Shown here: positions 19,480 to 22,626 of the stretch, piece by piece
How positions within the stretch are numbered: the first letter of the stretch is position 1
Layout of the letters: the number at the start of each line of letters is the position of its first letter
Origin: Candidatus Sulfopaludibacter sp. SbA3
GTDB lineage: Bacteria; Acidobacteriota; Terriglobia; Bryobacterales; Bryobacteraceae
DNA length: 64,000 bases
Direction: 5' to 3'
Assembly: GCA_945890485.1 (NCBI GenBank)
Contig: CAMDCN010000002.1
Span: 62,001-126,000 of the forward strand
Translations under genes and position numbers: made by a program
Notes under the pieces: generated by a model
What the model saw: only the letters and a program-made list of their open reading frames with translations
Databases searched by the model: none
Told to the model about the DNA's origin: nothing

Positions 19480-20520
19480 TCAGTCCAGACTCTCCCAGAT
19501 CCGCTCAATCACCTCGAGCCCGCCCTCCGCCGATACCTCCGATCCCGTGTCGGTTGCCACCGCCGAGCGGCGCGCCATCGTCTTCAGCAGCTTCGGTCTC
19601 ACCTCCGGCCGTGTCCATGGGCACACCGCGATGCAGATGCCGCACGAAGCCCGCTCTGCAAAATACGGAATGCACTTGTCAAAGTCCACGTACCACCGCT
19701 CCACACCCCGCACCATCTGCTTCTGCTCCGTAATCGCCTCCGGAGGGCACTCCACCGTGCAGATTTGGCACGTCGCGCAGAACTCGTCGCCGCCAAACCG
19801 GACCGGAGCCGTCGCCGCCAGCGGCATATCCGTCGTCACCCCCGCCAGCCGGAAGCCCGACCCAAACTGCGGGCTGATCATCGACCCATGCTTGCCCAAC
19901 TCTCCCAGGCCTGAGGCAATCGCCGGCGGAATCAGCAGCAGCGCATTCGCCGCCGGCCCCGGATACGCCTTCGCCGTGTACCCTTGCGCCCGGATCCAGT
20001 TCGCCAACGCGAACGCCGCCCGCGTCCCGCGCGCGTACTGTTCGCCAATATCCGTCACTCCGGCGCCGTTGGTCTCATCGGAAGGAACCTGCCGCAGCCG
20101 CTCGTAGTCGTGGGCCAACGCCAGCACAATCACCCACGGTTCCTCAATCTCGTAGCCCTGAAACACGTAGAGCGGATCCATGGCAGCAATCCCCACGGCA
20201 TCCGCTTCATGCTCAAGCGCGAACGCTCTCAATTCCGCGGAGAACTCTTCCGGCGAACGTTCCGGGTGCTGCTCCGCCACGGGAGTCAATTCCGGATGGT
20301 TGTATGCCGCCTGAAACGCCGGGCCTGCTCCCGGGCACCGGCGCGAACTCTGCCGCGCGAGGTTTTGCAACGCGCCAAACGGATGCAGTTCCGGCGGATG
20401 CCAGAAGAACGGCGATGCCTGCCGCGCCGCGGCCTCGCCAACGCCATTGATCGAGTTCCCCGAAGCGGTGAGAAGAGCCAGGGTCTCGGGATGGGGCTCA
20501 TAGCGTTTCTTGTCTTTCAT
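19480..20520 (-). CDS. Reductive-dehalogenase-like 4Fe-4S protein
   Basis: 346 aa from the ATG at 20520. Two ferredoxin-type motifs are complete: Cys248, 251, 254, 258 (CATCQICTVECP) and Cys283, 293, 296, 300 (CGICIAVCPW). The preceding region (KAYPGPAANALLLIPPAIASG, LGELGKHGSMISPQFGSGFRL) matches the cobalamin-binding core of reductive dehalogenases and, more distantly, epoxyqueuosine reductase QueG. No Tat signal is present, so this is a cytoplasmic, non-respiratory type. The start overlaps the DUF3179 gene's stop (ATGA). The electron donor and the halogenated substrate, if any, are unknown. Confidence 0.8.
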   Translation of the reverse strand: MKDKKRYEPHPETLALLTASGNSINGVGEAAARQASPFFWHPPELHPFGALQNLARQSSRRCPGAGPAFQAAYNHPELTPVAEQHPERSPEEFSAELRAFALEHEADAVGIAAMDPLYVFQGYEIEEPWVIVLALAHDYERLRQVPSDETNGAGVTDIGEQYARGTRAAFALANWIRAQGYTAKAYPGPAANALLLIPPAIASGLGELGKHGSMISPQFGSGFRLAGVTTDMPLAATAPVRFGGDEFCATCQICTVECPPEAITEQKQMVRGVERWYVDFDKCIPYFAERASCGICIAVCPWTRPEVRPKLLKTMARRSAVATDTGSEVSAEGGLEVIERIWESLD

Positions 20521-21749
20521 CGTTGCGGCCGCCCGGCACGCCGGAAAACGGAGGTCTCTGGGTTGTACTGCCGCCAGTCGAACCAGTAGTCCTTCGTCAA
20601 TTCGACGCGTTCCAGACAGACTCCAGCCGCCTTCCCCGCTACGGCGCAACCCTGGAAGTTCCAGCGACTGCCCGTGATATCGTCCATCAGCAACCCATCG
20701 CCATCGCCCGTCCGGTAGAGCTCAATCTCTTTGCCCCCACCCGGCATCTGTGAACGAAATCCACGCACGGATCGGCCATCGGGCCCCACGGCGATCACTA
20801 TCGGGACACTGCCGAGGCGATCCAGAACCACCTTTTCCGCCAAGACGATATCGTGCGGATACGCCCGCGCGATACCATCCGCCCGAACGCCCAGCACCAG
20901 CGTGCGCGGCTTCACGCCCTCCTGCGCGTAGCTCAGCACCGTTGGGGATTGCTGCATCCGTTCTTCCCAGTCTTTCTTGGCGTACCGCCCTGCGTCTTCG
21001 GCGGACTCCTTCAACAGCGTGGCGTCCGGTTGTTCGGTTTTCCAGAGTCCGAAGGTCAACTCATCGGAAGGAATTAGCACAAGCTGCCGCCCTGCCAGCG
21101 GTCCGGAGATGGCCTTGCCGCTGATTTGTTGCCAGAACGTACCCGTTTCTTCATCGCGCATCAGAAAGTTTTGATTGTTGATTCCTGCCAGCCGGAAGCT
21201 CAGAGAAAGACCGTCCACCTCGCGCCTCCACACCAGACCGGTGTGACAGAGCGTTCAATAGGTAGCCACGATTGGAACACTGCCCACGTTGTCGTTCACG
21301 ATGTGGTGATAGGCGATCGCGCGGACCGGGTAGCCACGCGCGACGCCGTTCTGTTGAATGGCTAACACCATATCGTCGTCGTCGAGCCGCCCCTCGATTG
21401 CGGCCTCGAACTGTGGCTCGGGAATGGGGTGGAACATGATTTCGAACACGTTGATGCGGGCCGCCACCGCCGCACCGCAGGTGACAAAGACCGCCAAGGC
21501 GAGGGCGGCCTTCCCGGCTTTACTGGCCACGCCCCGCCAAGCCAAGGTGGCCACGAGAATGGCTATTCCGACACAAACGAGCGTCAGCACGGGTCGAAAT
21601 CGCATGAGGAGCAGCGCGGCGTTCAACTCCTCCGCGCCTTGTGCGCGAAAAGGCCGAATCACGTACATCGGATAGAGCGCGCAGAACAGAGAAGCCAAAG
21701 CGCATCCCAGCAAAAGCCCCCGAACTCCAGGTCCTCGAACGAGTTTCAT
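20517..21749 (-). CDS. DUF3179 membrane protein, probable selenoprotein (TGA = Sec165)
   Basis: Read through the in-frame TGA at 21255-21257 the product is 410 aa. Residues 1-110 are hydrophobic, with several membrane segments. Residues 125-400 form a DUF3179 domain: IVNDNVGSVPIVATY, then UTLC, then HTGLVWRREVDG and FWQQISGKAISGPLAGRQL. In this family the motif after VxVTY is normally CxxC (CPLC). Here the first Cys codon is TGA, giving Sec165-x-x-Cys168, a redox pair. A 6-bp hairpin with loop GGUCU starts 9 bases after the TGA. Frame and homology continue unbroken on both sides, which argues against a decayed gene. It is coupled by ATGA to a dehalogenase-like protein. Sec machinery is not in the window. 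Confidence 0.82.
21229..21254 (-). promoter_or_regulatory. Putative bacterial SECIS element
   Basis: Immediately 3' of the TGA on the - strand, CACACC pairs with GGUGUG (6 bp, plus a possible U-G extension) around the 5-base loop GGUCU. The same GGUCU occurs in the apical loop of the E. coli fdhF SECIS. The TGA-to-loop distance is 15 bases, about the lower limit of the usual range. SelB would bind this loop. Confidence 0.75.
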
Positions 21750-22131
21750 AGTCCTGACACGCTACTCCGCTGCCTCCCGGCCGCTCAATAATGGATTTCC
21801 GCTATCGGCAGCGAATGGGGCGATTGTGCAGTCCCTGAAGCATCGAGAACGAGCCCCGCGCTTCCGACGCCCGCCTTTCGTCGCATTCGCTTCTGCAATT
21901 TGCAGGGTCTCAGCGGATTGGGGGCGCTTGCCAGAGGAACGGACTCTGGAGCCGAATCGCGTTGAGCCATGATGCAGTCGTTGCGTGAACGTCGGCAGTT
22001 TGGGTGCACAATTGGTCACGGTCAAAGCTGACGGATTCCGTCGACGCCAACGGATGAATAGCCGTCCTGCCGAATAGGACAGGCCAGCGAGCACCCTACT
22101 GACGCAAGTCTGGCCTGAAAGCTCCTAACCT
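21750..22131. other. Intergenic region upstream of the DUF3179 gene
   Basis: About 380 bp. It contains AGGAC before the DUF3179 ATG and presumably that operon's promoter. A 110-codon frame on the - strand (21762-22094) has Arg/Ser-rich composition and no family features, and I do not call it a gene. No RNA gene or repeat was recognised. Confidence 0.4.
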
Positions 22132-22626
22132 CTAGACGGCCGCGGCCGGCCGGAAGTTTTTCGTCGCTCGCGTCCCCAGCAGAAGGAACACCCCCAGCAG
22201 CGCCAACTGCGCAACCAGGAACGGCGCCTCCGACTGCGTCGGCGCTAGCGCCTGCAGCGCCGGAATCTTCTGGAATGCCTGCGCTACGCCCACAAAAGAG
22301 TTGAGGTACAGCGCGACGGACGCGGTCACCACGTAGACACTGCGCCATGAACCGGACAGTTGGAATCCGTACAACGCCACCAGGGCCACCGCCAGCACAA
22401 CAAGTGAAATCGTTCCGACAATGTGCGAAGGCAGTAGTTTCTCGAAGGGAAACATAAAGCCGGTGACGCTGGTCAAGACGGTGGTCGCCAGAAAACAGGT
22501 ATTCCAGCCGTCCAGCCGTTTTCCCGAGATAATGCCGAAAACGACAGCAAATCCGGTGGCGATGCCAATCAGGCTGATTACCACATGCAACAGCGTAAAT
22601 GCGAAAAGACTCATTCCGAGCATCAT
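22132..22626 (-). CDS. Small multi-pass membrane protein, unknown function
   Basis: 164 aa with four to five hydrophobic segments (LFAFTLLHVVISLIGIATGF, FLATTVLTSVTGFMFPF, VGTISLVVLAVALVALYGF, APFLVAQLALLGVFLLLG). A conserved-looking TM1 motif HVVISLIG and GISGKRLDGWN between TM1 and TM2 suggest a recurrent uncharacterised family. It follows the alpha/beta hydrolase by 28 bp on the same strand and is probably co-transcribed. Confidence 0.75.
   Translation of the reverse strand: MMLGMSLFAFTLLHVVISLIGIATGFAVVFGIISGKRLDGWNTCFLATTVLTSVTGFMFPFEKLLPSHIVGTISLVVLAVALVALYGFQLSGSWRSVYVVTASVALYLNSFVGVAQAFQKIPALQALAPTQSEAPFLVAQLALLGVFLLLGTRATKNFRPAAAV

Follow-up and report, generated by a model that had tools for sequence, protein, structure and literature searches.

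Within the stretch of Candidatus Sulfopaludibacter sp. SbA3 DNA analysed here (64,000 nucleotides, referred to as the window), a gene of the DUF3179 family carries an in-frame TGA, and the question is how this codon is read. The minus-strand frame runs from an ATG at 21749 through 164 codons to a TGA at 21257-21255 and continues for another 245 codons to a second TGA at 20519-20517. A plain ORF listing breaks it into two ORFs, 21255-21749 (164 aa) and 20517-21233 (238 aa), the latter with its own GTG start. The Pfam family PF11376 (DUF3179) matches across the TGA in one unbroken span, over residues 109-399, with an E value of 1.1e-61 and 209.3 bits against a cut-off of 27 (the Pfam gathering score was thus passed); a search of NCBIfam with the 410-residue protein returned no family. 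DUF3179 occurs once in the source genome. An earlier sequence-only reading had described 164 codons, a TGA and DUF3179 sequence onward in the same frame, and had predicted that a gene caller would split the gene. The frame and the span of PF11376 bear out the former, and the two listed ORFs the latter.

We estimate at about 0.93 the probability that the UGA of codon 165 is decoded as selenocysteine (Sec) by SelB and tRNA-Sec under the direction of a downstream hairpin, the support being comparative rather than experimental. The features that bear on this reading are as follows.

20517-21749, minus strand: putative DUF3179 selenoprotein gene of 410 codons, with Sec at 165 and a TGA stop at 20517-20519; a single open frame when TGA is read as Sec, with PF11376 spanning the TGA
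21255-21257, minus strand: TGA codon 165, read as selenocysteine in U165-T-L-C168; TGA in 34 UTLCHTGL family sequences and TGC in 10 orthologues
21229-21245, minus strand: SECIS-like hairpin CACACC-GGUCU-GGUGUG, with the loop 15 nt past the TGA; no synonymous change in 34/34 sequences and compensating third-base pairs in distant copies

We compared the gene with its relatives in 150 sampled genomes of the same family. DUF3179 was found in 52 of them, with 59 matches, 37 of which held one in-frame TGA. All 37 TGA copies read U-x-x-C: 34 had UTLCHTGL (the window included), and USYC, UVVC and UGLC occurred once each. Since 36 other genomes of the family thus carry a DUF3179 TGA at the U-x-x-C site, 33 of them in the motif U-T-L-C-H-T-G, a sequencing error is very unlikely. 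Column 165 was then read in two alignments, A1 and A2, which are overlapping sets chosen by the analyst; A1 took 30 of the 35 Sec references, leaving out L078, L081, L084, L086 and L089. The alignment with homologues that the sequence-only reading had proposed as a check for Cys at this column gave Cys or Sec in 36/36 (A1) and 33/33 (A2) sequences. Its description of the motif as CxxC holds for the first position, which is Cys or Sec, but the second Cys proved dispensable in other subtypes. Cys occupied position +3 (residue 168) in 65 of 86 Sec copies and in 26 of 29 Cys copies; the remaining copies had A, T, S, V or D there. These 115 collected sequences were picked by a motif beginning with U or C and are therefore uninformative on the U/C position itself. 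Ten of 83 loci from the phylum sample gave no motif; six of these were recovered, and L102, L114, L115 and L142 lie outside the 115.

Two loci in the sample differed from the rest. L095 (G078:C32, from the same genus), with its TGA at about 5109, encodes a strongly diverged DUF3179 whose motif is UVVCNSG and whose downstream sequence folds differently; it is probably another Sec subtype. L069 (G009:C48), a DUF3179 gene of Cys type, has an in-frame TAA that lies outside the Sec column and is either a broken gene or an error.

The hairpin begins 9 nt past the UGA. Its stem pairs CACACC (21245-21240) with GGUGUG (21234-21229) around the loop GGUCU (21239-21235), and it folds with 6-7 bp at -16.3 kcal/mol. 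This stem and loop had been picked out by eye from the letters, together with a likeness to fdhF, and both observations were confirmed: the loop of E. coli K-12 fdhF is also GGTCT. In the SECIS element of fdhF, as here, the UGA is followed by a hairpin with a GGUC(U) loop, whereas the spacing is 18 nt there and 15 nt here, and the two proteins are unrelated. A distance of 16-37 nt from the UGA to the apical loop is given for bacterial SECIS elements (PMC13188914, Fig 2 legend); our own count of 15 nt, from which the published counting rule may differ, falls one below that range. An Rfam search of 20400-21900 gave no match at E up to 1. We term the hairpin SECIS-like in action and do not place it under the published bSECIS consensus.

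Taken by itself, the stem-loop is unremarkable relative to chance. A loose 6-bp stem-loop of similar kind follows 54 of the 1539 TGA triplets of the window (both strands, any frame). Equally good folds were obtained in 5 of 200 shuffles of the 38-nt segment (z -2.3) and in 19 of 200 shuffles of the 46-nt segment (z -1.3). Among the 1539, this TGA is the only one followed by a GGTCT loop on a stem of 5 bp or more. The earlier argument that a SECIS-like fold at this codon speaks against gene decay thus survives only in part: the fold is present, but such folds are frequent by chance, and most of its stem pairs are dictated by the encoded H-T-G-L-V-W and are retained in Cys copies too. That the hairpin is more than a chance structure follows from the conservation of synonymous sites across relatives.

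Synonymous usage was counted in 34 of the 37 TGA copies of the family; L058 and L095, which belong to other subtypes, and L093 were left out. Positions from codon -25 to codon +45 were considered if the residue was conserved in at least 30 of the 34 sequences and more than one codon was available for it. Forty-one positions qualified, and 35 of them vary. A single codon was used at the remaining six: -1 (TAT), +4 (CAC), +5 (ACC), +6 (GGT), +7 (CTG) and +8 (GTG). Codons +4 to +8 cover the hairpin. Because the protein sequence H-T-x-x-V-W fixes most of the stem pairs, it is the third bases that bear the evidence, and the free tests of the hairpin are the third-base pairs His/Val and Thr/Leu and the Gly codon of the loop. 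In L093, where Arg replaces His, the third-base pair is kept as G-U. The protein-fixed stem therefore weakens one argument, while the third-base evidence stands. Comparison at the sequence level very strongly supports the Sec reading of this UGA and supports selection on it.

A wider survey extended these observations. Named genomes were scanned for a U-x-L-C-H-T-G-x-V-W frame in which a TGA was required, which gave at least 117 loci; all 117 were analysed, and DUF3179-like residues precede the TGA in every one of those listed. An identical 17-base hairpin is present in 104 of the 117 listed loci. Among the other 13, the Thr/Leu third-base pair is G-C in three, U-A in two, G-U in two and C-G in one, with no standard pair in five, and the His/Val third-base pair is U-A in one and lacks a standard pair in three. 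Five of the 117 listed copies thus break the Thr/Leu pair, and three of these break the His/Val pair too. When the sequences were reduced to 24 distinct 30-mers (set A5, assembled without the last 37 of the 117 listed loci), 95.8% of cells paired, as opposed to at most 62.5% for slid structures. Four of the seven stem pairs are invariant in this set, being fixed by the H-T-x-x-V-W codons. The observed value was reached by 5, 12, 11 and 10 of 500 shuffles on four measures and by 329 on a fifth, with kinship ignored throughout.

By record title, the 117 listed loci include 109 from Acidobacteriota, 4 from Nannocystis and 3 from Gemmatimonadota. The U-x-L-C-H-T-G motif with Sec is also found beyond Acidobacteriota, at L236, L251, L312 and L329 (Nannocystis) and at L215, L290 and L327 (Gemmatimonadota); gene transfer or a wider ancestry are both possible explanations.

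In a sample of the phylum, DUF3179 was detected in 133 of 396 genomes, and other Sec subtypes were seen, including UPLAHTGV and UPLTGSGV. All five core pairs formed in the present register in only 2 of the 29 non-CHTG Sec copies collected. Since the stem is mostly absent from them in this register, such copies would need another element. At L119, L162 and other loci of the phylum sample with UPLAHTGV or UPLANTAV motifs, single folds placed a stem further downstream. As far as these predicted folds indicate, the recoding hairpin may occupy differing registers within one protein family.

Orthologues with Cys at the same position provide a natural control. Ten orthologues from the class (L170-L179, CTLCHTGLVW) have TGC at this codon, and selB scored over the cut-off in none of the 10 genomes. 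Four more genomes of the class without DUF3179, taken as controls, also lacked selB over the cut-off. Within the taxonomic family of the ten Cys genomes, G233 combines a TGA copy with selB over the cut-off, and G358 has selB and two weaker DUF3179 matches. DUF3179 matched in 13 genomes of family f2, and in all of these but G358 and G499, 11 in number, the codon was read.

The Cys orthologues resemble the gene of the window in the type of protein, in the position of the residue and in the protein-fixed pairs, but they carry TGC instead of TGA, their third bases and loop codon vary, and their genomes have no selB over the cut-off. At each of the positions +4 to +8, two or three different codons occur among the ten copies. 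Of 57 CHTG-type Sec copies, 52 form both third-base pairs and 51 have GGT as the loop codon; the corresponding figure for the 10 Cys copies is one in each case. The five core pairs, which are mostly fixed by the protein, all form in 53 of 57 CHTG-type Sec copies and in 7 of 10 Cys copies. In one genome with both types (G014), the Cys paralogue L076 has a broken His/Val pair and a different loop, alongside the Sec copy L085. The third-base constraint has been lost in the ten Cys orthologues. Cys copies in genomes without selB over the cut-off amount to a natural experiment in which the requirements of a SECIS element, including the 15-nt spacing, could be measured.

The source genome (7.1 Mb in 35 contigs, 97% complete) encodes the machinery for Sec insertion. 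The sequence-only reading had proposed a search for selA, selB, selC and selD elsewhere in the genome, and selA (455.9 bits), selB (378.8 bits), selD (354.9 bits) and a tRNA-Sec were all found. The tRNA-Sec scored 70.6 bits, over the Rfam cut-off, and was called by ARAGORN as tRNA-SeC with anticodon tca. In the same genus, tRNA-Sec was over the cut-off in all 6 genomes searched for it. Among the 37 genomes of the family with a TGA copy, selB was over the cut-off in 33 and below it in G006, G012, G067 and G131; these four assemblies consist of hundreds of contigs each, yet two of them are rated 96 and 99% complete. Because as many as 129 of the 150 sampled family genomes have selB over the cut-off, its agreement with the TGA is weak evidence by itself. 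The selD gene of the source genome (L025, G000:C9:111412-112320) also holds one in-frame TGA, in VKAAG-U-ASKL, and is probably a selenoprotein gene itself.

These comparisons bear on two other readings of the TGA. The gene could be of the ordinary Cys type, with the TGA due to nonsense mutation or to an error in base calling; TGA is one base away from TGC or TGT, and genomes with Cys orthologues do exist. Against this, the TGA is present in 37 of the 59 family matches and in the at least 117 named-genome loci, from the scan that required it, with DUF3179-like residues upstream. The residues before and after the TGA are conserved, and it is only in its vicinity that synonymous sites are frozen. 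With a TGA common to many genomes and constrained synonymous sites, both of which were found, we regard decay or error as extremely improbable. Alternatively, a suppressor or recoded tRNA might insert Trp or Cys at the UGA, or each half might be a protein of its own, as the 238-aa downstream ORF with its GTG start would allow. Set against this, the gene uses TGA as its own stop, the genome has selA, selB and selD along with a tRNA-Sec (tca), the ten Cys orthologues belong to genomes without selB over the cut-off, and separate halves would divide a beta-hairpin within a single predicted domain. Neither version of this second reading seems at all probable to us, and insertion of Sec at codon 165 is the reading adopted below.

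Selenoproteins of the DUF3179 family have been named before. The guess that databases might use the name '(seleno)protein' for DUF3179 turned out to be right: a plasmid record of the haloarchaeon Salinirubellus reads 'DUF3179 domain-containing (seleno)protein'. The family (PF11376) is among the selenoprotein families listed, with the motif UxxC/T, in PMC9312934 and PMC13188914, and so its status as a selenoprotein family is not novel. PMC9312934 attributes the DUF3179 selenoprotein to Zhang and Gladyshev 2007 (ref. 63 there), a paper on the Olavius algarvensis symbiont, and the term DUF3179 also occurs in PMC9230427. The gene described here is a new, unusually well supported member of this already listed family. 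It shares with the DUF3179 selenoprotein of the two reviews (PMC9312934, PMC13188914) the Pfam family and the same kind of U-x-x-C site. Unlike the entry as given there, it belongs to a UTLCHTGLVW subtype in Acidobacteriota, with three predicted N-terminal helices and a near-frozen hairpin. The string 'Acidobacteri' is absent from the main text of PMC9312934 and PMC13188914. One table of PMC12013277 includes a single Acidobacteriota genome with 3 known selenoprotein genes, and the main text of that paper contains neither DUF3179 nor PF11376. In the papers searched, selenocysteine was nowhere combined with a Rieske-like fold. What this analysis adds is the strength of the evidence, the extent of the gene's occurrence in Acidobacteriota and a predicted architecture in which three membrane helices are combined with two Rieske-like folds that lack cluster ligands. 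A strongly supported selenoprotein is thereby added for a soil phylum, from a gene that a plain ORF listing halves.

The following parts of the protein were distinguished in an AlphaFold2 model.

21459-21731, minus strand: N-terminal part (residues 7-97), where the model places three helices that we take to be membrane helices
21051-21347, minus strand: the first of two predicted Rieske-like domains (residues 135-233), which contains the Sec hairpin; modelled at pLDDT 95.5, with a best structural match of Z 8.9 and neither C-x-H nor C-x-x-H
20583-20879, minus strand: predicted second Rieske-like domain without a Sec/Cys site (residues 291-389), from alignment, AlphaFold2 model and structural matches

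The full model (pLDDT 94.5) has helices at residues 7-30, 39-71 and 77-97, followed by two beta domains. The helices are probably membrane-spanning, given their hydrophobicity. When the whole model was aligned with known structures, Rieske proteins came out on top (Z 9.7 over 98 residues, 3.3 A); the same list includes an unrelated designed protein at Z 7.7. The N domain alone gave a best Z of 8.9 over 91 residues at 2.5 A. According to a caution issued by the tool, top Z scores of 7-8 are usual when there is no clear match. We take all 50 matches listed for this domain to be proteins of the Rieske fold. Foldseek returned nothing below E 0.04 for the whole model or 0.07 for the N domain. By sequence, no similarity to Rieske proteins was found, with a probability of 0.3% in hhalign comparisons against 15 Rieske sequences; among solved structures, phmmer found none and the A1 profile gave two weak hits, which we take as chance. 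The predicted domain fold resembles that of Rieske ferredoxins, NirD and the Rieske iron-sulfur protein, but the C-x-H and C-x-x-H ligands of these proteins are absent from this protein (with Sec counted as Cys) and from 33/33 N-domains. On the basis of the models, two tandem Rieske-like beta domains are probable.

In the model, a strand ends at Sec165, and C168 is part of the turn that leads to the following strand. His148 and Cys/Sec165 are invariant in 33/33 N-domains, and His148 is conserved at 90% or more in the 36 A1 sequences. Lining up U-T-L-C with C-x-x-H by eye had suggested Sec as a ligand of a Rieske cluster, which we dropped as the main reading. In the match of the N domain to 3dqy, model positions 30-128 lie on chain positions 1-94 with 91 aligned and few residues unaligned, and Sec165 (model position 60) falls near chain position 30, well before the ligand positions, in a register deduced from the range ends. 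The ligands of the genome's own Rieske protein are at positions such as 43/45/62/65.

A related possibility concerns only the role of the residue and is graded on a separate scale: Sec165 might bind a metal together with His148 and Cys168 in the Rieske-like fold and not act as a redox selenol. The invariance of His148 and Cys/Sec165 in the 33 N-domains and the likeness of the fold to Rieske proteins speak for this. We nevertheless consider it unlikely, since the ligand loops of Rieske proteins fall elsewhere in the structural match (as far as the range ends indicate), the profile comparison with 15 Rieske sequences gives nothing, and 21 of the 86 collected Sec copies have A, T, S, V or D at position 168.

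We favour a redox selenol. The product would be a protein of 410 residues in which three N-terminal helices precede a tandem pair of Rieske-like beta domains, and these domains would face the outside of the inner membrane. In the first domain, Sec165 would close a strand before the tight turn U165-T-L-C168 and could serve as the attacking selenol; Cys168 would then form a selenenylsulfide with Sec165, and the conserved His148 may assist. We infer that the protein acts as a membrane-bound, outward-facing thiol/selenol oxidoreductase. More speculatively, and with the odds somewhat against it, DUF3179 as a whole might be a cluster-free, membrane-anchored branch of the Rieske fold with its Sec/Cys redox site in a different hairpin, a selenoenzyme fold other than thioredoxin. 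Acidobacteriota would then have kept one gene with a near-frozen recoding hairpin since early in the phylum, going to Cys upon loss of the Sec machinery. The predicted Rieske-like fold offers a testable structural idea for DUF3179.

The gene downstream was examined together with the genes around other DUF3179 loci.

19480-20520, minus strand: 4Fe-4S gene whose ATG overlaps the DUF3179 stop as ATGA, with similarity below the cut-offs to reductive dehalogenase and QueG

Its product scored 118.4 bits for reductive dehalogenase TIGR02486 (cut-off 160.35) and 46.1 for QueG (cut-off 200). Operon coupling, as the ATGA overlap might suggest, was considered and set aside: no neighbour kept a fixed place in 36 loci (the window included, many of them cut by contig ends). 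A relative of the 4Fe-4S gene was found near one other locus (L087), placed elsewhere, and the pairing was absent in the relatives examined. Upstream, 22132-22626 on the minus strand of the window encodes a 164-aa membrane-like protein without a match in Pfam or NCBIfam. Some of the neighbour clusters are other frames of the DUF3179 gene itself. The commonest cluster apart from these, a large family resembling TonB-dependent receptors, was present at 11 of the 36 loci, at scattered positions and on both strands.
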